This document shows positions 5,676 to 56,290 of a stretch of DNA of 64,000 bases, piece after piece; the stretch's first letter is position 1, and each line of letters starts with the position of its first letter. The translations under genes were made by a program, and so were the position numbers. The DNA comes from Sulfurovum sp. NBC37-1 (GTDB taxonomy: Bacteria > Campylobacterota > Campylobacteria > Campylobacterales > Sulfurovaceae): contig NC_009663.1 of the NCBI RefSeq assembly GCF_000010345.1, positions 2,356,001 through 2,420,000 of the forward strand, given 5' to 3'. The notes below the pieces were generated by a model. That model had not been told where the DNA came from. It made no database searches and saw only the letters and a list, made by a program, of their open reading frames with translations.

Positions 5676-6719
5676 TTGGAAACGATATTACCGGCATACA
5701 ACGATCCGCTGTTCAGTATCCTGCTGATCATCGTCATTGCACTGATCATCTCCGTTGTCACCTATGCCTGGGGCCTCTACAAACAGCAGAAAGAAGAAGG
5801 GAACCTGCTGAAGTTCCTTGACAAGTTCGATAGTTCGGAGTGTTCTCTCGACACGGACGATATGCCATTTGAAGAGCATATGTTCAAACCGCTCACGCTG
5901 CTTGCCAAAGCCTTCGAGAATTCGGGGGAATACCATAAGGCGATCAACATCTATCTCTATATCATCAAACATATCGACGATGACCTTGCAAAAATGGAAC
6001 TGATGGAGAGACTGGGGAATACTTATCTGCATGCCGGTTTTCTTGAACGAGCACGGTCGATCTATACGGAGATACTCAGGAAGCGCCCACGTAATATCAA
6101 AGTGCTTTATGAGCTCGGGGTCGTCTATGAAATGATGCACCAATACGACAAGGCGCAGGAGATCATCGAACCGCTCAATACCCTGGGTGAGGACACCCAT
6201 ACCCTCAGCAAATTCCTTGAACTCTCCGCCCTGACATCGAACAAACTGCTCGATACGGATGAGAAGATTGCCGCACTGAAAAAAATACTTGAAGAGGAAC
6301 CGAAACTCTATCGGCAGATCGTCGATACCCTGCTCAAACTCGATACCACGGAAGCCTGGAAGATCATCGATCCGGCACGCATCGGGGAGATGATCGACAT
6401 CCTCTGGTTCTTACCGAATTCACAAGTCGATTTGGATATAATCACATCCGATGAGAGGCTCAGTACCCTCTACTACGCCAAAGGGTACCTGCAGAAGCCA
6501 TCGCTCCATAGCGGTATCTTCGCGGTGGATATGCTGGCGACGGCCAGAGAGAATGGATTTGAGGATGGGGACCTTCTCTTCTCCTACCTCTGCAAAAAAT
6601 GTAAACAGAGCTATCCGGTATCCTTCAAACGGTGTCCGAACTGTATGGCGATAAACTCTGTGGAAGTGGAAGAAAAGATTGCAAAAGCAAGCCCGAAAAC
6701 AGATTACTCTCTACTCTGA
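5676..6719 (+). CDS. LapB-like TPR protein with N-terminal membrane anchor and C-terminal zinc ribbon
   Basis: Resembles LapB/YciM, the inner-membrane adaptor that in E. coli tunes LPS synthesis by presenting LpxC to FtsH. The order of parts is the same: one N-terminal transmembrane helix (about residues 12-33), TPR-like helical repeats facing the cytoplasm (about 60-260, with EYHKAINIYLYI and ERARSIYTEILRK), and a C-terminal rubredoxin-like metal site with two CxxC pairs (LCKKCKQSYP and KRCPNCMA, about 310-330). The start used is TTG at 5676, with only a weak ribosome site. It overlaps rnhA by 41 bases, so it is the first gene of a run through DUF945. The same role in this lineage is inferred. 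Confidence 0.8.
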   Translation: METILPAYNDPLFSILLIIVIALIISVVTYAWGLYKQQKEEGNLLKFLDKFDSSECSLDTDDMPFEEHMFKPLTLLAKAFENSGEYHKAINIYLYIIKHIDDDLAKMELMERLGNTYLHAGFLERARSIYTEILRKRPRNIKVLYELGVVYEMMHQYDKAQEIIEPLNTLGEDTHTLSKFLELSALTSNKLLDTDEKIAALKKILEEEPKLYRQIVDTLLKLDTTEAWKIIDPARIGEMIDILWFLPNSQVDLDIITSDERLSTLYYAKGYLQKPSLHSGIFAVDMLATARENGFEDGDLLFSYLCKKCKQSYPVSFKRCPNCMAINSVEVEEKIAKASPKTDYSLL

Positions 6720-7122
6720 CGGATCGAGCCTCGGAAATCCGGGGCCGGGAGGATACGGCGGCATACTGGAGTATAAAGGCTCACGCAAAGAGTACTTTGG
6801 CGGAGAAGAAGAAACAACGAACAACCGTATGGAACTCCGAGGGGTCATCGAGGGGCTGAAACTGCTCAAAGAACCCTGCGACGTGGAAGTCGTCTCAGAC
6901 AGCTCTTACGTAGTCAAAGCGATCAACGAATGGCTGGAGAGCTGGATCAGAAGGGACTTCAAGAAGGTCAAGAACGTCGATCTGTGGAAAGCCTACATTG
7001 AAGCCGCCGCACCGCATCATGTGCACGGCACCTGGGTACGCGGGCATGACGGACACCCTGAGAATGAACGCTGCGACGAACTGGCACGCAATGAGGCAGA
7101 ACGCATCAAGGCTTCCCTGTAG
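6679..7122 (+). CDS. rnhA: Ribonuclease HI
   Basis: Degrades RNA in RNA-DNA hybrids (primers, R-loops). The 147-aa protein has the DEDD metal site: [17 protein letters not shown] (first Asp), NNRMELRGV (Glu), VVSDSSYVV (Asp) and the C-terminal [15 protein letters not shown] (His loop and last Asp). The frame is open from a TTG at 6679 inside the 3' end of the lapB-like gene, with GGAAG upstream; no in-frame ATG fits, because the first catalytic strand begins nine codons later. A second RNase H (rnhB) is encoded 3 kb away. Confidence 0.95.
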
Positions 7123-7172
7123 CGTGGGCATCTCTTCTGTCCACGTTACGAAATTCAAAAAAAGGAAAAAAG

Positions 7173-7844
7173 ATGAACGATTACAGTCAACTTGAAAAAC
7201 GACTGAACTATACATTCAAGGACAAGCAATTGATTATTGAGGCTTTGACACACAAGAGTTACAAAAAGCCTTACAATAATGAGCGGCTTGAATTTCTGGG
7301 AGATGCCGTCCTTGACCTCATTGTAGGCGAGTATCTTTTCAAGAAATTCCCCAAGTCCGACGAAGGGATCCTCTCCAAGATACGGGCCTCACTTGTCAAT
7401 GAGAGTGGGTTTACACTTTTGGCGAGGAAGATAGATCTCGGCTCCTACATCTACCTCTCCCTTGCCGAAGAGAACAACAACGGAAGAGACAAGCCCTCCC
7501 TCCTTTCAAACGCCTTTGAAGCGATCATAGGGGCGGTTTACCTTGAAGCGGGTCTTGATACCGCCAAGGAGATCTCCATCAAACTGCTTGAAGAGTGTCA
7601 CCCCAAGATCGACCTTCAGAGCCTGTCAAAAGATTACAAGACCGCTTTACAGGAGTTGACACAGGCGACACACGCAGTCACGCCGGGCTACGAGATGCTC
7701 GGATCTTCCGGCCCCGACCACAAGAAAGAATTTGAGATCGCAGTCACGCTTGACAACAAGACCATTGCCACCGCCAAAGGGAAAAGCAAAAAAGACGCGC
7801 AGCAGAAAGCAGCGAAGATCGCATTGGAGGCACTCAAAAAATGA
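7173..7844 (+). CDS. rnc: Ribonuclease III
   Basis: Double-strand-specific endoribonuclease that processes rRNA precursors and structured mRNAs. The 223-aa protein has the catalytic signature [14 protein letters not shown] (about residues 36-49) with the acidic metal ligands, a second acidic site in [13 protein letters not shown], and a C-terminal double-stranded RNA-binding domain from about 150 ([29 protein letters not shown]). Length and domain order are standard. An AAAGGAAAAAAG site precedes the ATG, and the stop overlaps the aroC start (ATGA). Confidence 0.97.
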
Positions 7845-46027: not shown

Positions 46028-46063
46028 TGCATGGAATATTGATTGAAATTTAGTATAGATATA

Positions 46064-46127
46064 TGGCAGAGAGGAAGGGATTCGAACCCTCGATGAGTTG
46101 CCCCATACACGAGTTCCAGTCGTGTCC
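46064..46127 (-). pseudogene. 3' fragment of tRNA-Ser(GGA), island attachment site (attL)
   Basis: The minus-strand sequence from the anticodon stem on is intact: ACACGA-CTGGAAC-TCGTGT (anticodon GGA, Ser), variable arm, T arm with GGTTCGAATCC, acceptor strand and CCA (TGGCAG at 46064). The 5' half (acceptor 5' strand and D arm) is absent; upstream sequence (46128 onward) is unrelated AT-rich DNA. This is the displaced 3' end left when an element integrates into a tRNA gene. The intact tRNA is expected at the right end of the island, beyond the window. Confidence 0.82.
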
Positions 46128-46484: not shown

Positions 46485-46540
46485 TAATCAAAACATTCCA
46501 GATGCATATATATATTGAAAATGTATCTTAAGGAATGATG

Positions 46541-47680
46541 ATGAGAAATACAAGAAAAAGAGAACGGGTTGCAACCGGGATCTATAAAAGAATCGATGCA
46601 AAGGGTGAAATTATTTATGATATAAATTTCAGGGATGAATTTGGGAAAAATAAGTTTCTTAAAGTGGGAAGAAAGTCAGATGGGGTCACCGTTGCCTATT
46701 GCAAACAGTATAGAAGTAAAATTATCAATATGAAATATTTGGGAGAAGATGTATCTAACATAAGAAAGAAATCTTCTATAACGTTTGATGATATCACAGA
46801 AGATTACTTTGAGTATGTGAAGTATGCAGACTTTAAAGAACCTCAATCATTTGCTAATCGCTATAGAGATCATATCAAGGATAGTCTTGGGCATTTACCC
46901 GTAGAAAGCATTACTAAAAATGATATCAATAATTTGATTATGCTGCTTAAAGATAAAAATTTGGCACCTGCAACAATTGACCGGATCAGACAGCAGGTAT
47001 CTGCTACATTTAATGTGGCAATAGGGAAAGAAAAATGCAGAAACAATCCGGCAAGTGTATCAAGAGTTGATAGCAGCTCCTTGATGCGTTTGAACAAGAA
47101 AAGCATTAATAATGCAAGAGAAAGGTACCTTTCCAAGGATGAAGCCAATCTTCTGCTTAGCGAACTCAAGCTAAGAAGATTTGATGTTTACTTCATGGCT
47201 TTGCTTGCTTTAACTACTGGGGCAAGAGCTGGAGAAATATTGAAAATTCAGTATAAGGATATCGACCTTGAAAACAGATATATTAACTTGGTTGAAACCA
47301 AAAATGGATCTAGTCGCAAAATAAAAATTACCTCAAAAGTCTATGATATTCTAAATGAAATAGAGTTTGAAAGTCCAAACAAGTACCTGTTTGCAGGTAG
47401 CAAACATGATCATCTTCAAGCTATACCAAACATATACTCTATCATAGTAGGAGAATTATTCAATAGTGAGCTGGATTCAAGAGATACAAAACATAGGGTA
47501 TGTTTCCATACGCTTAGGCATACATTTGCAAGTTGGCTTGCCATTAATGGAACACCTATCTTTACAATCCAAAAGCTTATGGGGCATAAAGACATCAATA
47601 TGACACTTCGATATGCGAAGCTAAGTCCTGATGCCGGCGTAGAGGCAGTAAATAGTTTGGAAGAGAAGTTTATAGAATAA
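46541..47680 (+). CDS. Tyrosine recombinase/integrase
   Basis: About 379 aa. The N-terminal part (KRERVATGIYKRIDAKGEI) is an Arm-type DNA-binding region. A core-binding SAM-like region follows (ITEDYFEYVKYADFK, IKDSLGHLPVESIT), then the catalytic domain with TGARAGEIL (Arg), HTLRHTFASWL (HxxR) and LMGHKDINMTLRYAKL (His, Tyr nucleophile). Three ATGs lie close together; AAGGA at 46530-46534 is 6 bases from the third (46541), which is chosen. It lies 0.4 kb from the tRNA-Ser fragment and is the likely integrase of the island. Confidence 0.93.
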   Translation: MRNTRKRERVATGIYKRIDAKGEIIYDINFRDEFGKNKFLKVGRKSDGVTVAYCKQYRSKIINMKYLGEDVSNIRKKSSITFDDITEDYFEYVKYADFKEPQSFANRYRDHIKDSLGHLPVESITKNDINNLIMLLKDKNLAPATIDRIRQQVSATFNVAIGKEKCRNNPASVSRVDSSSLMRLNKKSINNARERYLSKDEANLLLSELKLRRFDVYFMALLALTTGARAGEILKIQYKDIDLENRYINLVETKNGSSRKIKITSKVYDILNEIEFESPNKYLFAGSKHDHLQAIPNIYSIIVGELFNSELDSRDTKHRVCFHTLRHTFASWLAINGTPIFTIQKLMGHKDINMTLRYAKLSPDAGVEAVNSLEEKFIE

Positions 47681-47762
47681 GTAGCCCATATATACATGTT
47701 TGTGTTTGATCAAAAAGAATGATATCTTCTTTATATATTATTATCGAAGGAGAATCAACACG

Positions 47763-48863
47763 ATGGGAAAACATACTATAATTAACGATGCGAAAGATAT
47801 GATACAAGTAGATAAAAAAGGCTACTATATCTATAGAGATAATTGCCAAATAATAATGAAAAAATTAAAAGAGGGGAAATATGATGGTGTCCGTAATTAT
47901 TATAAAGAAGCAAGAGAAGCAGGAGATTTAGACAGGGAAAAACCATATGCAAGAGAACTGAATCGTATACTCTGGGGGTTCCTACGTGCAAACAAAAAGA
48001 GTAAAAAGGATTTACAGATTCTCGATACAGCTATAGCCATATTTCTTGATACAATTAGTACACTAGAAAGTATAGAAAATTCTAAACCAGTATCAGAATA
48101 TCTTTATAATCATGGCTATAAATCATATGTAGACTTTGCCCAATATCTCAACAATAAATATGGTATTGATGCCAAGGAATATCAGCAAGCAAAATCAAAT
48201 GGATTTAAAATTAATGAACAATCTTCCGAGGATGATTTACTGTATGGAAATGAACCAATATATAATTCTTCAAGAATGACAGAGGCAATTCTCTCCATAC
48301 TTAAAAATAACAAAAAGGAATTATTGAAATCCAGTGATTTTGGATACTCCATCTTGGAGCATGGACTAAAACAAAAAGAGATATATCCAATTTATAAGCA
48401 AAATTATGGATTGCCTCCTCTTCAGGTCATTAAGTCAACCAAAGTGGTGCTAGAATTTAGTATCCTTGATGATAAAAAGTATATTGATCATATGCTAAAA
48501 GAAGCGTATGGGAAAGAAAAAAGATTTCATAGGATTACATCATCATCAGAGAAGAGTAGGCTTCTTAGTGCCATAAATCACAAAGAAGAAAAATTTGTAT
48601 CTATTAATATGTTACAAAAAGCACTTATTCTATACCAGTATACTCAGGATGGAGAAGAAGTATTAGATAGCAAAGATGCTTGGTATATTTTTATTTTCCA
48701 TGCATTCTTATTTGCATACTCAGAAAAATCAAAAACGACTGACATGCAACCTTGCAAGAATCTAGTATATAGAAGTAGAGATGTAATCACCTACTCTGTA
48801 CTAAAAAACGAGATAAAAAAACAAACAGAAATAATAGAATCTTTATTAAATTTAACTCACTAA
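47763..48863 (+). CDS. Island protein of unknown function, 366 aa
   Basis: Not recognised. Acidic/Lys-rich and mostly helical, with no signal peptide or membrane segment. Tyr/Lys-rich N-terminal region (KKGYYIYRDN), a Glu/Asp-rich middle, and a C-terminal hydrophobic helix pair (AWYIFIFHAFLFAYSEKS). An AAGGAG site sets the start at 47763. It lies just after the integrase on the same strand and is separate (200 bp) from the FtsZ-like gene. AT-rich like the rest of the island. Confidence 0.65.
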   Translation: MGKHTIINDAKDMIQVDKKGYYIYRDNCQIIMKKLKEGKYDGVRNYYKEAREAGDLDREKPYARELNRILWGFLRANKKSKKDLQILDTAIAIFLDTISTLESIENSKPVSEYLYNHGYKSYVDFAQYLNNKYGIDAKEYQQAKSNGFKINEQSSEDDLLYGNEPIYNSSRMTEAILSILKNNKKELLKSSDFGYSILEHGLKQKEIYPIYKQNYGLPPLQVIKSTKVVLEFSILDDKKYIDHMLKEAYGKEKRFHRITSSSEKSRLLSAINHKEEKFVSINMLQKALILYQYTQDGEEVLDSKDAWYIFIFHAFLFAYSEKSKTTDMQPCKNLVYRSRDVITYSVLKNEIKKQTEIIESLLNLTH

Positions 48864-49064: not shown

Positions 49065-50078
49065 ATGGATAAAATTAACATCAAAGTTGTTGGTATTGGT
49101 GGCGGTGGAGGGAGCAGTGTTGCCTATATGGCAGATACGGGACTTGAAAATGTTGATTTTATGGTTATTCACACAGACAAGTCAGCTCTTGATGCTTCGC
49201 CTATAGAAAATAAAATACTATTGGGTGGGGGTACAGATATAGAGATGGATCCTGCCGCAGGGGAATCGGCTGCTTTGGCGAATTATGAGGAGATAAAAAC
49301 AAAGCTTCACGGAGCAGACCTGATTTTGATAATTGCCGCATTTGGAGGAGCCACAGGAACCGGTGCTGCACCCATTGTTGCCAGAGCTGCTAAAAAAGTA
49401 GGTGCTTTGGCAATCCCTATTGTGACGACCCCATTTAAATTTGAAGGCAGAAAGAGAAGAAATATCGCCAACCAGGGAATTGAAGACCTGTTGGCTGAGT
49501 GTGGCTTGGTTATCGTAGTTCCAAATGAAGAAATTTTATCAATGGTACTAGACAATCTGGGTATCCGTGAAGCTTTTTATATAATAGACAAGCTTGTTTG
49601 TTGGATTGCAGGCAGCATTACGAAAAGTATGGTTTCTTGTGGAGAAAAAGATGTCTGTCTTGATTTAGAAAATATAAAAGCCGTATTGGGGCACAAAGGC
49701 ATTGCATGGGTAGGTACATCGGGGTATATAAACAGCATGAGTGCCACATCTGCATTGGAAAAGGCTATTGGGTCTCCACTGCTTCATGATGTATCCCTTG
49801 ATGAAGCCAAAGGTATTTTGGTTCATTTTGATGTACATTCAAACTACTCTTACGATGAGATTGTTAAAGCAATGGAAATATTGAAAGAACATAGCGGGGA
49901 AGGCGTGCTGGTGAAGTTTTCTGTCTCAGAAAATAAATGCATGGACCCATATGAGTATAAAGCTGCATTAATCGCAGTGGGTTTTGATGCTGACATGGAA
50001 GTGATTGCCAAATCAGATCCCCGTAAGTGTGAACAGGATGAAATTCTTGATGTTCCAGTTTTATTAAAGAGAGCATAG
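49065..50078 (+). CDS. FtsZ-like protein with altered GTPase residues
   Basis: 337-aa member of the FtsZ/tubulin superfamily, clearly FtsZ-related. GIGGGGGSSV (T1, residues 10-19), GGATGTGAAP (tubulin signature/T4, 94-103), TTPFKFEGRKR (121-131) and IGSPLLHDVSLDEAKGILV (C-terminal domain, about 235-253) are well matched. Changes: the FtsZ Asn187 equivalent, a guanine contact, is Asp175 (EAFYIID); in the T7 loop the NxDxxD pattern becomes CLDLEN (198-203), so Asn207 and Asp212 equivalents are Cys and Asn; the T3 loop is diverged. No linker or conserved C-terminal FtsA/ZipA peptide follows. These predict absent or weak GTP hydrolysis. It is on a mobile island, with a C-domain-only relative 92 bp downstream. 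Confidence 0.92.
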   Translation: MDKINIKVVGIGGGGGSSVAYMADTGLENVDFMVIHTDKSALDASPIENKILLGGGTDIEMDPAAGESAALANYEEIKTKLHGADLILIIAAFGGATGTGAAPIVARAAKKVGALAIPIVTTPFKFEGRKRRNIANQGIEDLLAECGLVIVVPNEEILSMVLDNLGIREAFYIIDKLVCWIAGSITKSMVSCGEKDVCLDLENIKAVLGHKGIAWVGTSGYINSMSATSALEKAIGSPLLHDVSLDEAKGILVHFDVHSNYSYDEIVKAMEILKEHSGEGVLVKFSVSENKCMDPYEYKAALIAVGFDADMEVIAKSDPRKCEQDEILDVPVLLKRA

Positions 50079-50170
50079 CTGGGATGGATAAGCAGGTACA
50101 CAACTATAACAGAGAATGTTGCGGTGTCAAAGCCTGGAGGCTGTTCAAAATAAAAATATTGGGAGGTAAA

Positions 50171-50515
50171 ATGATCGCAGACAGAAACGATCCGCTGAGT
50201 ATGGCTGACTACTATACAATTATGCGTAAAAAAGGATACATCAACGGATATTATGGAAGCACTTCTATTGATAAAGTTGCAGAAGAGGTCAAGGTAAAAC
50301 TAGGGAAGGCTCTTTTGTCGGCGCAGGGAGTATCAGTCCTGTTGTATATGAATGAACGTATGCAGCAATCGGATATAGAAAATATGTGGTTGCAGATAGA
50401 GGCATTGATTCACCCAGGTGCAAGCATAATGCTTAACACTGAAACAGATAATGGCATCTCTGGCAATATGGTGGAGTATGAGGTCTTGTTGTCGGGATTT
50501 CATTACGATAATTGA
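50171..50515 (+). CDS. FtsZ C-terminal-domain-like small protein
   Basis: 114 aa. By eye it resembles the FtsZ C-terminal domain alone: GYINGYYGSTSIDKVAEEV (22-40) matches the segment after the T7 loop, GKALLSAQGVSVLLYM (45-60) the SPLLxxxxxxGAxGVLVNI strand, then helix SDIENMWLQIEALIHPGA, strand SIMLNTETDNGISGNM and VEYEVLLSGF, equal to IIGTxxDxxxxDEVRVTVIATG. There is no nucleotide-binding half. GGGAGG lies 4-5 bases before the ATG at 50171, favouring it over a start 29 codons upstream that would lie 6 bp from the FtsZ-like stop. Same strand as the FtsZ-like gene and probably co-transcribed. Fold match is by pattern only. Confidence 0.7.
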   Translation: MIADRNDPLSMADYYTIMRKKGYINGYYGSTSIDKVAEEVKVKLGKALLSAQGVSVLLYMNERMQQSDIENMWLQIEALIHPGASIMLNTETDNGISGNMVEYEVLLSGFHYDN

Positions 50516-50629: not shown

Positions 50630-52111
50630 ATGACCCTATCCAAATCCCAATACATCCGTGGCTTGCAATGCTACAAGTCACTCTGGCTTTATAAACATCA
50701 ACCCGAACTCAGACAAAAGCCAGATGTGCAAACCGAATCTCTTTTTGAAACAGGCTGCGAAGTCGGTGATCTTGCAAAAGAGCTTTTCCCAAATGGTATC
50801 GAGATAACTTTCAATAGCGATAACTTTAACGGCATGATAGCAAAAACCAAGGAGCTTATCGAAAGTGGTGCAGAGGTGATCTATGAGGCGACTTTCATGG
50901 AGGATGGCATTTTTGCTATGGCAGATATCTTGGTTAGAAACGGCAATATTTGGGATATCTATGAAGTTAAGGCTTCCACATATGTCAAAGAATATTACCT
51001 GGATGACATCTCCATCCAGTGGTATACCATCACGAAAGTGCTCGATCTTGGTCGTGCCTATATCGTGCATATCAACAACAAATATGTCCGAACAGGGGAT
51101 TTAAGTATCAGAGAGCTGCTAAAGAGGGAGGATATGACCGATATCGTTCTTGAACGGCAGGAAGAGATTCCCCAAAAGCTTCATGAGATGGAAGAGATAC
51201 TGAAAGGCAATGAACCTCATATAGATATAGGACCCCACTGTTTCAATCCGTTTGAGTGTGATTTTGTTCCATTCTGTTGGAGGCACATTCCTCAAAAGAA
51301 CTCCGTATTTGACCTCTCATACGCCAGAGGGAAACAGTGGGATCTTTATAGGCAGGGAGTACTGAGCATTGAAGAGATTCCGGATGACTTTTACCTTGGT
51401 GTCAATACAGCACTCCAGGTAAAACATCACAAATCGGGTGAAGTAAAGATTGACAAAGAGAAGATCTCAGAGTTTCTGGATACTATAGTATATCCCATTA
51501 ATTTCTTTGACTTCGAGACGTTTCAGGAGGCTGTACCCAGATTTGATAACCAAAGACCTTATGAGAAGATCCCTTTTCAATACTCTCTGCATATTCTCCA
51601 TGAAGACGGCATATTGGAGCACAAAGAGTTTCTTGGGGATGAAAACAGTGACCCCAGAGAGCTTTTGTCACAGCAAATACTTCAAGACATTGCTTCGACT
51701 GGGTCGATAGTAGCGTTCAGCCAATCTTTCGAGATCACACAGATTAAAAATCTTGCACAGGCAAATCCCAATTTGAGTGACGCACTGCTTGCGCTCATCG
51801 ACAGATTTGTCGACTTGGCATACCCGTTTCAACATAAGTACTATTATCATCCAGGGTTCAATGGCAGGTACTCCATCAAAGTGGTTTTGCCGACACTGTT
51901 CCCTGACAATGATGAACTTGACTATAAAAAACTTGGCTCAGTACAAAATGGCAGTGATGCAATGAATACCTTTGCCAAGCTGCATCTTTTGAAAGATAAA
52001 AACAAACGAGAGGAGATACGAAAAGACCTGCTTGCCTATTGCCGTTTGGATACTTTGGCGATGGTGAGGATATGGGAGAAGTTGAGGGATGCAGTTAACG
52101 AGAATGCTTAA
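50630..52111 (+). CDS. DUF2779 protein: Cas4-like nuclease fused to DEDD exonuclease
   Basis: 493-aa protein. The N-terminal half is Cas4/AddB-like PD-(D/E)XK: a Cys at 14 in YIRGLQCYKSLWL, the catalytic ExK in WDIYEVKAS (about 110) and a Cys triplet in HCFNPFECDFVPFCW (about 203-217), which would hold a 4Fe-4S cluster. The C-terminal half is RNase H-fold 3'-5' exonuclease-like: FFDFETFQEAVP (DxE), FSQSFEITQIKNLA, and LAYCRLDTLAMV (YxxxD). The pattern is DUF2779. Role unproven; DNA end processing or defence is likely. AAGGAG before the ATG; a PD-(D/E)XK gene follows 23 bp downstream. Confidence 0.85.
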   Translation: MTLSKSQYIRGLQCYKSLWLYKHQPELRQKPDVQTESLFETGCEVGDLAKELFPNGIEITFNSDNFNGMIAKTKELIESGAEVIYEATFMEDGIFAMADILVRNGNIWDIYEVKASTYVKEYYLDDISIQWYTITKVLDLGRAYIVHINNKYVRTGDLSIRELLKREDMTDIVLERQEEIPQKLHEMEEILKGNEPHIDIGPHCFNPFECDFVPFCWRHIPQKNSVFDLSYARGKQWDLYRQGVLSIEEIPDDFYLGVNTALQVKHHKSGEVKIDKEKISEFLDTIVYPINFFDFETFQEAVPRFDNQRPYEKIPFQYSLHILHEDGILEHKEFLGDENSDPRELLSQQILQDIASTGSIVAFSQSFEITQIKNLAQANPNLSDALLALIDRFVDLAYPFQHKYYYHPGFNGRYSIKVVLPTLFPDNDELDYKKLGSVQNGSDAMNTFAKLHLLKDKNKREEIRKDLLAYCRLDTLAMVRIWEKLRDAVNENA

Positions 52112-52134: not shown

Positions 52135-53304
52135 ATGGAAGATAGAGAATATAAAGAATTTATTCAAACAACATATGAAAGATTTAAAAATAAATTAAAT
52201 CAAAAAAAACTTAGAGGGGTTAATGATTACAATCTGTTGACAACGGTACTGAAAGAACATGATGAAGTTAGACTTCATTCCAGAATGATCGGCTCACTTT
52301 TAAATCCTGAAGGGTTACATTACCAAAACACACTTTTTTTAGATAAATTTCTAAATCTAATTGATTTACCTGATTTTTTCGATGATACACAAAAAGTTAC
52401 ACTATGTAGAGAATGTGAAAATATTGATCTGTATCTGACAGACGGAAAGAAACATATAATCATAGAAAACAAAGTGTATACAGGTGATCAGCCGGCTCAA
52501 ATTAAGAGATACATCGAAAAAATAGTGAAGAAAAATCCTAAGATGGGCAAGAAGGATCTGGTTGTTATTTATCTATCGATAGATAGAGACAAGCCTACCG
52601 AATTGAGTCTTGGGAAAGAGAAAAAAAATCAAACTTCTGGATATTTTGAGATTAATACAGAAAAACAACTTCAGTATATAGGTTCTGAGAATAATCTCAA
52701 AGATAGAAAATTTAACTATAAATCCATTCATTATGGTGCAGAAATACTGAATTGGCTGAAAGTATGCAAAGAAGAGATTGAAAATATTACAAATCTAAAT
52801 TTGGCAATACAGCAATACATTGATGTTATAAAAATGCTCACAAATACATATACTGGAGGTATAAAAATGGAAAAAATAAAGTTTGCAAAAGAACATTATG
52901 AAACACTTGTTGAATTTGATAAGATGATGAAAGAATATATTGATTCTGTTAAAGAAAAAGCTGTTTATGCACTAGGCGAGAATGACTTTAATGCTTATAA
53001 AATAGAGGAATGGGAAAATAATGATAAGGCAATAAGAATAAAAAACAACAAAAATGAATGGGGGCCAAATACAAATATTGCACTTGTATTAAAATCCAAT
53101 GGCTCTTTTTCGATAATAATTTATGTATATGACAGACCGGAAGTAGCGGAATCAAAACTTGCTATGCTGGGTAGGATGGAGTGGGAAGGCAAAATCGGGT
53201 ATTTTAGGGTTGGTTGTTACAAAAATCTTAATGATGTTTATGAAAAGATTAAAACAGCAGCAGAAGAACTTAATAAGTATTATAAAAACATAATCCAGAC
53301 ATAA
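52135..53304 (+). CDS. PD-(D/E)XK nuclease-superfamily protein
   Basis: 389-aa protein. N-terminal domain has LHSRMIGSLLNPEG then the active-site core NIDLYLTDGKKHIIIENKV with Asp98, Glu111 and Lys113, followed by DQPAQIKRY (Gln-containing helix), as in PDDEXK_4-type nucleases. The C-terminal domain (from about 245) has no named match, with alternating strands and helices. An AGGAGG site precedes the ATG. A second, excellent ribosome site and in-frame ATG lie at 52855/52867. It lies in a run of same-strand genes with the DUF2779 and SLOG genes. Confidence 0.82.
   Translation: MEDREYKEFIQTTYERFKNKLNQKKLRGVNDYNLLTTVLKEHDEVRLHSRMIGSLLNPEGLHYQNTLFLDKFLNLIDLPDFFDDTQKVTLCRECENIDLYLTDGKKHIIIENKVYTGDQPAQIKRYIEKIVKKNPKMGKKDLVVIYLSIDRDKPTELSLGKEKKNQTSGYFEINTEKQLQYIGSENNLKDRKFNYKSIHYGAEILNWLKVCKEEIENITNLNLAIQQYIDVIKMLTNTYTGGIKMEKIKFAKEHYETLVEFDKMMKEYIDSVKEKAVYALGENDFNAYKIEEWENNDKAIRIKNNKNEWGPNTNIALVLKSNGSFSIIIYVYDRPEVAESKLAMLGRMEWEGKIGYFRVGCYKNLNDVYEKIKTAAEELNKYYKNIIQT
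52855..52869 (+). promoter_or_regulatory. Internal ribosome-binding site and start inside the PD-(D/E)XK gene
   Basis: GGAGG (52855-52859), 7-base spacer, ATG (52867), in frame with the main gene (codon 245), giving MEKIKFAKEHYETLVEF and a 145-residue C-terminal product. The spacing and strength equal those of the gene's own start. Confidence 0.55.
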
Positions 53305-53357: not shown

Positions 53358-53747
53358 ATGGAAAATATAACAAAAGTGGCAGTTGTAGGAAGCCGGGGAT
53401 TTGAGGATTATGTACTGTTTAAAACCGTTATGGACAAGTTCCTTGCAGATTTTGAGTCAGTGGCTTTTGTAAGTGGTGGTGCCAGCGGTGCGGATAGTTT
53501 GGCAGAACGGTATGCGAAAGAGCATGGCATAGAGGTGATCGTTTTCAAGCCTGAATGGAAACGCTATGGCAAACGAGCAGGATATATGAGAAATGCACAG
53601 ATCTGGAAAGAAGCAGATGTAGGCATAGCCTTTTGGGATGGTGAGAGTAAGGGTACCCGGCACTCCTTCAAGTTAGCAAAAAAGATGAGTAAAGAGTTGA
53701 GGGTGTTTGACTATTTGAAACGGATGTTTATTGATCCGGATGCTTAA
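53358..53747 (+). CDS. SLOG-family protein (DUF2493/YspA-like)
   Basis: 129-aa Rossmann-like protein. VAVVGSRGFEDYVLF at the N-terminus, then VSGGASGADSLAERYAKEHG (nucleotide-binding glycine loop) and YAGYMRNAQIWKEADVGIAFWDGESKGT-type block (RNAQI motif) are typical of the DUF2493/SLOG superfamily, which senses or processes nucleotide-derived signals and appears in many anti-phage loci. GGAG before the ATG. Same strand and close to the nuclease gene (53 bp). Confidence 0.88.
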   Translation: MENITKVAVVGSRGFEDYVLFKTVMDKFLADFESVAFVSGGASGADSLAERYAKEHGIEVIVFKPEWKRYGKRAGYMRNAQIWKEADVGIAFWDGESKGTRHSFKLAKKMSKELRVFDYLKRMFIDPDA

Positions 53748-53773: not shown

Positions 53774-53939
53774 CTAGGAGTCTGTCGGACTGAAGCCATT
53801 TTTGCAAAAATAGACTGTTTTTAAGGAAAATCCAAGCCCCTACGGACAAAATAAGCGTACTTTCTCTTATGCAAAATTTTCTGTATCCCAAAAGTGTCTT
53901 ATTTTGCCTATTTGAAAAGTGAGTCCGACAGACTCCTAG
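53774..53939. mobile_element. MITE with perfect 14-bp terminal inverted repeats and CTAG duplications
   Basis: Non-coding 158-bp element (53778-53935) starting GAGTCTGTCGGACT and ending with the exact inverse AGTCCGACAGACTC, flanked by CTAG on both sides (53774-53777, 53936-53939) as a 4-bp target duplication. It entered the leader of the DnaA-like gene just before its AGGAGG ribosome site and regenerated CTAGGAGG. No transposase inside; the mobilising IS is elsewhere. A frame running through it into the next gene is not real coding. Confidence 0.9.
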
Positions 53940-53950
53940 GAGGAATTATT

Positions 53951-54711
53951 GTGATTAAAGAAAAAAGTTTTGAGAATTTTGTGGTTGCTGACAGTAATCA
54001 TCTTGCATTTGAAGTAGCGAAGAAGGTGTGTTCTTCCAGGGATATCCTACCAAGCCCCGTTGTTTTTTACTCCTCTTCGCCCAATGGGAAAACACATCTG
54101 CTAAAAGCCATTTACAATGAGTGCATCAAATGGGGAGGAAAGCAATATATGTTACCGTTGAAGATTTCGCTAATAAATATGCGATGTATTTAATGTCCCA
54201 AACAATGAATCGGTTTAGAAATAAATATCAAAGGAATGATGTTTTGCTCCTCGATAACTTTGACGATATATCCAATATGTTTGAAACGCAAAAGCAATTG
54301 TCAAAATTTATTGAATTTTATAACGAAAACCATAAAAATATAGTGATTGCCATGAGTAGGCATCCTGTCAGAACGTTTTCTATTTCTGATAGGTTAAAGA
54401 ACCATTTACTAAGAGGTCTATCTTGTGAACTAAAAGGAATGCACAGAGAAACAATAGACAAACTTATTCACAAAAAATGTCATGAACTTGGTTTGAAACT
54501 AAATGATAAAATGGTTCATCGTATTAGTAAGTACCATAAGGAGATACCGAAAATAGAGGGAATTTTACATAAAGCATATGCATTGTCTGATCTGCTTGGA
54601 CAAAAAGTTGATATTGCACTTATTAAGCAACTAGTCAAAGAGTTTAAAAATGAAGAGAAAAAACAACTCACCTCAAAAAAAGTGAAAGAAAATAGGTATA
54701 TTTTATTATAA
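53951..54711 (+). pseudogene. DnaA-like AAA+ ATPase without DNA-binding domain, frameshifted
   Basis: Joined product is about 253 aa, matching DnaA domain III: a phosphate-binding loop YSSSPNGKTHLLKAIYNE (GGVGLGKTHLLHAI in DnaA; first glycines lost), AIYVTVEDFANKY, Walker B DVLLLDNFDD, arginine finger DRLKNHLLRGL and sensor-2-like KIEGILHKAYA. No DnaA domain IV (HTH) follows; it ends in a short basic tail. The frame breaks near 54140: 53951-54193 is frame one, ending at a stop; the rest continues at -1 to 54711. A slip at A-AAG (54139-54142) would join them exactly. Start is GTG at 53951 with AGGAGG 7-8 bases before it. Confidence 0.78.
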
Positions 54712-54813: not shown

Positions 54814-55737
54814 ATGCCATATAAAAAAGATTACGACAAAATACTGACCCGTCTGACGGTTATACTTTCCCGCCTCTACGACAGAGAAGCACTTTCTGTT
54901 ACGGAGCTTGCCGAAGAGTTCAATGTGAGTGGGCGCACCATCCAAAGAGATTTCAATGAAAGACTCATTTCTTTTCCTATCTATCAGGATAAAAAGAAAT
55001 GGAAGATGCAGGATGGGTTTCGAATAGAAAAAATCAAATCCATTGAAGAACAGCTTGTTTTGGACATAATAGAAAAAATGACTGAAAGTATAGGTGGTAA
55101 ATTTGCTACAACCTCACATAAGTTACTCTCTAAAATAAAAAATGAAGATTTTAACCCCATCTATACAAAATTGAATATAGAAGATATTAGTGATAGGTTT
55201 GATGATATACAACTCATAGAAAAAGCCATCAAAGATAAAACCGAATTAGAATGTAGTTATGAAAATGAAAGAGAGGGAACTTTTAGAGCTAATATACAAC
55301 CTCTTAAAATAGTTAATTATGAAGGCTTTTGGTATTTGGTTGCCTTTAAAGATGGGACTGTTCAAAAGTACTACATTAAAACTCTCTCAAACATACAGCC
55401 AACGGCTAAAACGTTTACAGTAGATGAAGATATAGAAGAGTTATTGAAGAACTCAATAAACATATGGTTCAAATCAGATATTGAACCTTTTGAAGTGAAA
55501 ATTTATGCAGATAAAGTTGCTGCAAAATATTTTAAACGCAGAGCATTACCCACACAAAGCATAGAGACCTTAAGGGAAGACGGTACTATGGAGTTTGTTG
55601 TGACTATTACTGACGAGATGGAGATTATACCTATTGTTAAATATTGGTTGCCTCATTTGAGGATATTAGAGCCTTTGTGGATTCAAGAGTTGATAAATGC
55701 AGACCTCAAAAAATATTTAAAGGAAAAAGATGAATAA
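54814..55737 (+). CDS. WYL-domain transcriptional regulator
   Basis: 307-aa regulator: N-terminal winged HTH (LSVTELAEEFNVSGRTIQRDFNER, about 29-53), central WYL domain (PLKIVNYEGFWYLVAFKDGTVQKYYIKTLSNI, split here as motif at about 167-198), and a C-terminal WCX-like extension (VKIYADKVAAKYFKRR). Such proteins bind nucleotide ligands and control phage-defence operons (BrxR/CapW type). The stop overlaps the start of the next gene by 8 bases. Confidence 0.92.
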   Translation: MPYKKDYDKILTRLTVILSRLYDREALSVTELAEEFNVSGRTIQRDFNERLISFPIYQDKKKWKMQDGFRIEKIKSIEEQLVLDIIEKMTESIGGKFATTSHKLLSKIKNEDFNPIYTKLNIEDISDRFDDIQLIEKAIKDKTELECSYENEREGTFRANIQPLKIVNYEGFWYLVAFKDGTVQKYYIKTLSNIQPTAKTFTVDEDIEELLKNSINIWFKSDIEPFEVKIYADKVAAKYFKRRALPTQSIETLREDGTMEFVVTITDEMEIIPIVKYWLPHLRILEPLWIQELINADLKKYLKEKDE

Positions 55738-56290
55738 AAAAATTGAAAATATTAGAATTGAATGGGATGGACCTTATAGTTTGACAGATATTGGCTATGA
55801 TGAGACAAACGAGAATTACAAAGGTAAAGTTAATCCTTCTTTATGTAATGAGTATACAGATTTTGGAATATATCAAGTTTATGGATATCATCCAATATAT
55901 GGAAACGATGTTTTACTCTATATTGGACAATCTGCACAACAAACATTTTCAAAACGATTATCTCAGGAAGGTTGGGAGTTTAATGCAGATTCTAAAAATA
56001 TTAAATTTTATGTTGGGCGACTATTTGCAAAGAAACAACCAAGTTCAGAAAAGGAATGGGATAAGATGATAGATATAGCAGAAAGAATGCTTATTTATGC
56101 ACATGAACCAGCTCGAAACTCTTCTAATATTTTATCCATAACAAGAAATAGGGCCAAATTAAAAGAATTCGAAAATATAAGGATATTCAATTATGACAAT
56201 TATAGGAGCTTAATACCTGAAATATCTGGAGAATTATGGGTTAAAGATTTTGAGGATTATAATGGTGTATTTAATTCTAAAGAAATATAA
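55730..56290 (+). CDS. GIY-YIG-like nuclease-fold protein
   Basis: 186-aa protein translationally coupled to the WYL regulator (8-bp overlap, ATG at 55730). The central GIYQVYGYHPIYGNDVLLYIGQSAQQTFSKRL segment (about 46-77) fits the GIY...YIG two-strand motif with following Arg helix; a Glu for metal (EKEWDKMIDIAERMLIYAHEP, about 110-130) follows. Function as nuclease is inferred. Pairing with a WYL regulator suggests a regulated effector or defence enzyme. Confidence 0.75.
   Translation: MNKKIENIRIEWDGPYSLTDIGYDETNENYKGKVNPSLCNEYTDFGIYQVYGYHPIYGNDVLLYIGQSAQQTFSKRLSQEGWEFNADSKNIKFYVGRLFAKKQPSSEKEWDKMIDIAERMLIYAHEPARNSSNILSITRNRAKLKEFENIRIFNYDNYRSLIPEISGELWVKDFEDYNGVFNSKEI

Follow-up and report, generated by a model that had tools for sequence, protein, structure and literature searches.

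The integrase-marked island and its two FtsZ-related genes

The window analysed here comprises 64,000 nucleotides (bases 2356001-2420000) of the single-contig genome of Sulfurovum sp. NBC37-1, which has 2,562,277 bases. From about 46.5 kb onwards the G+C content of the window falls from 44-48% to 30-41%. The fall starts with the gene of a tyrosine integrase of 381 aa (46535-47680; Pfam Phage_integrase, 3.1e-28), and judged by its sequence the region from this point is an integrase-marked island, whose genes described below all lie on the forward strand. A 3' fragment of a tRNA-Ser gene is located on the reverse strand just outside the integrase, at the integrase end of the island (46062-46119). 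In a sequence-only reading of the window the island had been called tRNA-integrated, and the fragment adjoining the integrase agrees with this. However, its closest match is the intact tRNA-Ser(GGA) at genome positions 2420551-2420638, which lies 18 kb from the fragment, is inverted and is 88-90% identical, and a simple direct-repeat att pair was looked for around the island and not found. The tRNA boundary is only partly supported by these sequence comparisons. Directly before tRNA-Ser(GGA) we noticed a 509-aa ORF (window coordinates 62926-64455) that by eye resembles a PcfJ-like family of other islands carrying a WYL gene. A megablast comparison of the island with plasmids gave zero matches.

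The integrase gene is followed by the gene of an uncharacterised protein of 372 aa (47745-48863), for which Pfam, NCBIfam and PADLOC all gave no match, and then by two genes related to FtsZ. That two such genes lie next to each other on the same strand had been proposed from the sequence; this was confirmed by the ORFs at 49065-50078 and 50171-50515, by Pfam for the first and by sequence search and an AlphaFold model for the second. Downstream lie the genes of a DUF2779 protein of 493 aa with an RNase-H-like exonuclease domain (50630-52111; Pfam DUF2779 7.5e-42, RNase_H_2 4.6e-6), whose gene cluster is present in 19 loci of the set that we compared, of a PDDEXK_4 nuclease of 389 aa (52135-53304; Pfam 8.9e-29), which matched the PADLOC phage-defence candidate PDC-S26 (1.3e-45), and of a SLOG/YAcAr family protein of 129 aa (53358-53747; Pfam YAcAr 9.5e-19). 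Further downstream, a WYL-domain transcriptional regulator of 307 aa (54814-55737; Pfam WYL, WCX and HTH) is the sole member of its subfamily in the host genome and is 65-68% identical to the WYL proteins of three other loci with FtsZ-derived genes. It is followed by an uncharacterised WYL-linked protein of 186 aa (55730-56290), which had no match in Pfam and belongs to BLAST cluster 11, present in 8 compared loci. No PADLOC model matched either of the FtsZ-related proteins; the neighbouring PDDEXK_4 (PDC-S26) and WYL proteins do match.

The product of the first gene (49065-50078, 337 aa) is, by its sequence, a divergent FtsZ paralogue without linker. It is 42% identical to the FtsZ of the host, which is encoded elsewhere beside ftsA at 642 kb, and 42-45% identical to the FtsZ of the host genus, and nothing closer than canonical FtsZ was found among 397 genomes. 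Its TIGR00065 score was 219.6 bits, below the curated cut-off for the division protein (equivalog) of 295.2. Among the loops of the GTP site, T1 and T5 are kept, T4 (GGATGTG) is mostly kept and the T3 glycines are lost. The synergy (T7) loop (EKDVCLDLENIK, 49644-49679) is altered. Its residues were read from a motif alignment to Salmonella and host FtsZ, where CLDLENIK stands against NLDFADVK; C, D and N thereby occupy the catalytic positions N207, D209 and D212 (N207C and D212N, E. coli-type numbering). The sequence-only reading had described this protein as full length for the GTPase fold and as lacking the tail bound by FtsA. The first part stood with Pfam matches to Tubulin/FtsZ (2.8e-29) and FtsZ_C (3.1e-6), but the second had to be withdrawn: the C-terminal peptide DEILDVPVLLKRA (50037-50075) aligns with the FtsA-binding peptide at the end of host FtsZ, EDILDVPTFLRKQMD. 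The protein terminates in EILDVPVLLKRA, aligned with the host FtsA-type peptide DILDVPTFLRKQMD; the part that it lacks is the long linker.

For the second gene, 50171 is the probable start, since a GGGAGG ribosome site (GGGAGGTAAAATG) lies just before this position and the shortest homologues begin there. This start gives a protein of 114 aa (50171-50515) within an ORF of 143 aa whose open frame extends back to 50084; AlphaFold modelled the 29 additional residues at the N-terminus of the longer form with low confidence. No Pfam match to PF12327 (FtsZ_C) was obtained, as the gathering score of 27 bits was not reached. In a single-sequence search of the 397 genomes the small protein gave numerous matches to the C-terminal half of canonical FtsZ, many of them in Campylobacterota, mostly at 23-33% identity and with a best E of 7.6e-6, and the same search also gave four stand-alone ORFs of 105-106 aa. 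The AlphaFold2 model, made with 16 sequences, had a pLDDT of 92-97 across residues 51-140. Its top 50 Foldseek matches in the PDB were all FtsZ (best E 5.8e-8), and VIA-align of the model with B. subtilis FtsZ gave a Z of 14.3. The predicted fold shows a free FtsZ C-terminal domain that begins at the synergy (T7) loop, and the likeness to the C-terminal half of FtsZ, first suggested by the letters, passed the check by structure prediction. Two of its three T7 residues are changed (N207P and D209S) and D212 is kept.

FtsZ-derived genes beside one WYL subfamily

The exact window pair had no close orthologue in the 397 genomes. Conservation of the pair, on which the sequence-only reading had staked its case, was seen for the arrangement, as analogous adjacent pairs recur, but not for the two genes themselves. 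Second FtsZ-related ORFs were found in seven of the 397 genomes, two of them tandem copies adjoining canonical ftsZ. Most of the non-tandem neighbourhoods share a WYL regulator, DUF2779, PDDEXK_4, SIR2 and a macro domain with the window island. Moreover, an AAA+ ATPase of about 700 aa is frequent there; the window is without an AAA+ gene.

A WYL alignment, run as bait on 84,980 species genomes, gave 80 loci, 20 of which contained FtsZ-derived ORFs (one of the 20 being a bait locus). In the compared set, FtsZ-derived genes formed the largest gene cluster after WYL, with 28 loci including those first found through FtsZ; many compared loci are contig-truncated metagenome assemblies, the profiles were built partly from proteins later reported, and the proteins consisting only of the C-domain (C-only) are very divergent. 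The association was also seen in a census that was run independently of WYL on 392 Campylobacterota genomes, with a profile of four C-only proteins, which themselves come from WYL loci. Second C-domain ORFs were present in 22 of these genomes. Fourteen non-tandem census loci had played no part in the choice of the bait; in eight of them the second C-domain ORF has a gene of the WYL subfamily no more than 10 kb away, at distances of 7 bp to 3 kb. The chance expectation is about 2%, as 29 WYL-subfamily matches occur in 29.8 Mb over the 14 genomes, and the binomial P is 8e-11, or 3e-7 if one near-duplicate is left out and the chance rate is set twice as high, for loci that are not fully independent phylogenetically.

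The FtsZ-derived proteins are of four kinds. Full-length proteins without linker occur in the window and in loci L081, L082 and L131, and in L130 with an extra C-terminal domain. A second kind is full length with the GTP site lost or very degenerate (L083/L096, L099, L093). The third consists of the GTPase domain only (N-only) and was found in L085 and L155, both with an N-terminal hydrophobic segment, and in L098, L084, L121, L191 and L204, and the fourth is the C-only kind, the shortest members of which start at the synergy loop. According to the motif alignment, most full-length relatives have a damaged GTP site or none, the N-only proteins keep T1, T5 and partly T4, and the T7-loop aspartates are kept in most C-only proteins, with the loop partly lost in several, including that of the window. 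A full-length and a C-only protein are paired in the window and in L093. N-only and C-only genes are paired in three loci, with a sigma-70 region-4 gene between them in L085, a 104-aa ORF between them in L191 and an ATGA overlap in L204. In addition, we observed in L130 a fusion of FtsK-gamma to the first part of the FtsZ GTPase domain (5857-6372) and, next to it, an FtsZ of 459 aa whose extra C-terminal domain has a weak RecG wedge match (6379-7758).

One explanation of these arrangements is a filament or GTPase switch belonging to the island itself, serving partition, replication or a membrane function, in which an N-only and a C-only protein together restore one FtsZ in trans and host FtsZ is not the target. 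The GTP loops retained by the N-only proteins, the hydrophobic segment of two of them, the T7 loop kept by several C-only proteins and the neighbouring N-only and C-only genes are consistent with it, as is D212, which is lost in the FtsZ-like protein of the window and kept in its C-only partner. Nevertheless, many C-only genes are without a nearby N-only partner, several full-length relatives lack a usable GTP site and a TubR-like partner was not seen in the window; we consider this explanation unlikely.

FtsZ-derived genes lie directly beside WYL, at 7 to 400 bp, in L197, L199, L200 and L194. In Campylobacter-like loci with the order SIR2-WYL-X-MPE (metallophosphoesterase) the slot X is variable; we observed a C-only FtsZ in four of these loci and a protein of cluster c90 (Fic/RhuM-like) in four others (L034-L037, L174-L177). 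In L085 and L108 the stop codon of the AAA+ gene and the start codon of the FtsZ-derived gene share bases (TAATG). The AAA+ protein has two AAA domains and a predicted structure resembling unfoldases of the Cdc48/p97 type, and its top NCBIfam match, the antiphage ATPase IteA, is far below cut-off. Since remote loci with the 700-aa AAA+ gene often have WYL adjacent but are without clear FtsZ-derived genes, the ATPase is a frequent and not an obligatory partner. In one genus, many genomes show a single TAG within the stretch of the AAA+ gene of about 700 aa that the profile matches (G215, G121, G091, G088, G085, G262, G032, G243), either as the gene's end or as an internal stop held in common. 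The close WYL adjacency and the AAA+ overlap might indicate that the WYL regulator or the Cdc48-like ATPase is regulated by the FtsZ-derived proteins or has them as substrates, with no link to division or to phage inhibitors. This would leave the capture of FtsZ, apparently more than once and with the T7 loop often retained, without explanation, and appears improbable to us.

Pattern-based scans of viral contigs with the window FtsZ-like protein and with alignments of FtsZ-like, N-only, C-only and WYL proteins gave no relative, though such scans can miss divergent ones. Two sets of plasmid and phage matches were set aside: the match on the Campylobacter jejuni plasmid NZ_CP048757.1 is an ordinary chromosomal ftsA-ftsZ segment on a plasmid, and the other matches to the FtsZ-like protein show 30-35% identity and, where annotated, are mostly canonical ftsZ. 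Natural single-domain or split FtsZ proteins were not described in the open-access literature that we searched. The window pair belongs to a recurrent and apparently undescribed set of FtsZ-derived genes beside one WYL subfamily in defence-type islands of Campylobacterota.

Origin, selection and other truncated host proteins

In a tree of full-length proteins, which held no TubZ or PhuZ, the window protein grouped with the canonical FtsZ of Campylobacterota family f8 (support 100/99), and the other FtsZ-derived proteins grouped with the canonical FtsZ of the Sulfurimonas-type family f7 (100/100). The AU test rejected the hypothesis that all full-length FtsZ-derived proteins share one origin (p 0.004), for a group that was named after the tree had been seen and that contains long branches. 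The simplest reading of the tree is probably that FtsZ was captured from host lineages at least twice.

Diverged C-only pairs gave dN/dS ratios of 0.19-0.28, N-only proteins 0.13 and a form of 253 aa 0.23, and the diverged FtsZ-derived copies are shown by these sequence comparisons to be under purifying selection. Close Campylobacter C-only pairs gave 0.15-0.95 from very few changes and are uninformative. These values bear on whether the genes are decaying FtsZ duplicates, that is, non-functional fragments accumulating in islands. Such decay could account for the spread in the close pairs, for the frame-disrupted C-only gene of L085 and DnaA-like gene of the window and for tandem copies beside canonical ftsZ (L086, L087, L192). 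However, dN/dS is 0.13-0.28 in pairs with enough changes, the domain boundaries are precise, operon junctions overlap and the association with WYL is strong, which makes decay very unlikely. The truncated tandem ftsZ copies lie directly downstream of canonical ftsZ (L086:5460-6110, L087:5305-5955, L192:9517-10011), and no WYL gene was seen nearby.

The setting of the FtsZ-derived genes is, by gene content, defence-type. Their neighbours include PDDEXK_4/PDC-S26, McrBC, DUF262-like, SIR2, Fic-like, metallophosphoesterase and toxin-antitoxin genes, with the DUF262, Fic and some other labels assigned by eye from sequence. Truncated forms of further host proteins are encoded in the same islands. 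Stand-alone sigma-70 region-4 proteins adjoin FtsZ pieces in L038 (1717-1995), L085 (9277-9438) and L191 (2311-2547) and occur in the same locus in L081 (2028-2279); among the compared loci they are confined, with a strict motif, to loci with FtsZ-derived genes. The protein at L038:1717-1995 is 67% identical to host RpoD over 45 residues. L038 also contains a probable second C-only FtsZ ORF of the host genome (108 aa; L038:2108-2434, genome 2422108-2422434; HMM E 0.013 and motif match), just past the end of the window and about 16 kb from the window pair; its neighbours are a macro-domain gene and three ORFs resembling sigma-70 region 4 (74, 92 and 51 aa). Proteins consisting only of the DnaA ATPase domain are encoded in WYL islands at L122:2935-3666, at L204:12472-13218 and in the window at 53894-54711, where two overlapping frames (53894-54193 and 54121-54711; Pfam Bac_DnaA 7.2e-11 and 1.6e-15) encode a protein 34% identical to host DnaA. 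The window gene is interrupted by a frameshift, programmed or mutational.

A decoy or bait function is favoured by the occurrence of these other truncated proteins in the same islands. The FtsZ pieces would imitate the surface bound by phage division inhibitors and either soak the inhibitors up or signal to island partners (AAA+ unfoldase, SIR2, Fic, nucleases), and the remaining truncated host proteins would serve as decoys for further take-over proteins of phages. The stand-alone sigma-70 region 4, the DnaA ATPase domains and the FtsK-gamma/FtsZ fusion fit this idea, as do the probable captures, at least two, from the host lineage's own FtsZ and the shortest C-only proteins, which begin exactly at the synergy loop. 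On the other side, we know of no phage inhibitor for these hosts, the loop is partly lost in several C-only proteins including that of the window, and the sigma-70 region-4 proteins could be plain DNA-binding regulators. We regard a decoy function as possible though on balance unlikely. A broader proposal is that the islands have gathered from host lineages shortened versions of several core proteins (separate FtsZ N- and C-domain proteins, sigma-70 region 4, DnaA ATPase, FtsK-gamma), and that these, as decoys or baits for phage take-over proteins, would trigger neighbouring effectors; it seems doubtful to us.

Possible interference with host FtsZ polymers

The window FtsZ-like protein shares its fold, most GTP-binding loops and the C-terminal peptide with canonical Campylobacterota FtsZ (TIGR00065). 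It differs in its score below the cut-off, its missing linker, its changed T7 catalytic residues and its position, as a second copy on an island and not beside ftsA. Membership in FtsZ-like families predicted to remodel membranes, which had been raised for this pair, did not hold. FtsZl-1 and FtsZl-2 are likewise FtsZ-superfamily proteins outside the division operon. However, Makarova and Koonin described FtsZl-1 as an FtsZ N-domain with an extended coiled coil and a helical C-terminal region, with no ordinary C-domain and no recognisable T6-H7 part, and FtsZl-2 as having a C-terminal region of about 300 aa unrelated to FtsZ (Makarova and Koonin 2010, PMC2875224). The window protein has neither architecture, with 337 aa and an ordinary FtsZ C-domain (FtsZ_C match). 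As with TubZ/RepX and PhuZ, an FtsZ-superfamily protein is carried here by a mobile element. A separate TubZ-like filament, which had also been suggested for the element, is nonetheless not favoured, as the window protein nests within Campylobacterota FtsZ, in a tree built without TubZ or PhuZ, and no partition partner was identified.

SulA, MciZ, phage Gp0.4 and lambda Kil resemble the proposed system in their action at the FtsZ polymer interface. To our knowledge they are unrelated to FtsZ in sequence, whereas the candidate antagonist here is itself a piece of FtsZ. In a filament, each FtsZ subunit contributes its synergy loop to complete the nucleotide site of the following subunit (PMC13423816). 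Modelling and mutation placed phage T7 Gp0.4 on the synergy-loop surface of the FtsZ C-domain, the same surface as that of SulA and MciZ, and the defence protein CapRel-Ebc is activated by the Gp0.4-FtsZ complex (PMC13423816); both observations also speak for decoys. CapRel-Ebc shares with our loci the defence context and a phage protein that binds this surface, but it uses the host's own FtsZ, whereas the islands carry their own FtsZ pieces.

Because the synergy loop completes the nucleotide site of the neighbour, a free C-domain with the synergy face could cap filaments. Capping or poisoning is strengthened by the synergy-loop residues retained in most C-only proteins, and poisoning is favoured by the direct WYL adjacency, since this suggests tight control of something harmful. 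Both poison and decoy gain support from the retained loop combined with a GTP site that many full-length relatives have lost. The FtsZ-derived proteins most likely act through the longitudinal (synergy-loop) face of FtsZ, and capping or poisoning is not separable from a decoy by sequence.

We tentatively propose, with a probability of about 0.4, that the window pair forms an FtsZ-mimicking module in a defence-type island with a WYL link, and that this module interferes with host FtsZ polymers by capping or poisoning. Control by WYL would be relieved on infection or stress. The T7 face of the C-domain would then dock on the exposed nucleotide face of host FtsZ and cap filament growth, and the FtsZ-like protein might co-assemble with incomplete hydrolysis (D212N) and compete for FtsA. 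Cell division would stop, and the arrest would limit phage spread or buy time for the adjacent nucleases. In regarding interference as the most likely reading we count the predicted C-domain fold, the T7 aspartates kept, the GTP site lost in most full-length relatives and the GTP loops and FtsA-type peptide kept in the window protein. We further count its D212N and N207C changes, the host-lineage origin, the dN/dS of 0.13-0.28, the WYL link, the defence-type neighbours, the AAA+ overlaps in L085 and L108 and the finding of no relative on viral contigs. Against this stand the sigma-70 region-4, DnaA ATPase and FtsK-gamma proteins, which appear to fit decoys at least as well. Docking of the window C-only protein may be weak with N207P and D209S, the degenerate 253-aa form and the N-only forms with a hydrophobic N-terminus would need another variant of the mechanism, and the searched genomes contain the exact window pair only once.

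Taken together, the loci suggest that Campylobacterota repeatedly re-use pieces of their own division protein in conflict with phages or mobile DNA. Given their small size, the FtsZ-derived domains should lend themselves readily to expression and to tests with purified FtsZ. Decoys of phage targets in bacterial immunity and the control of filament assembly by free FtsZ domains in nature would thereby be opened to test. If the proposal is true, these islands would represent a new principle, in which a defence-type system is assembled from parts of the division protein of the cell itself.
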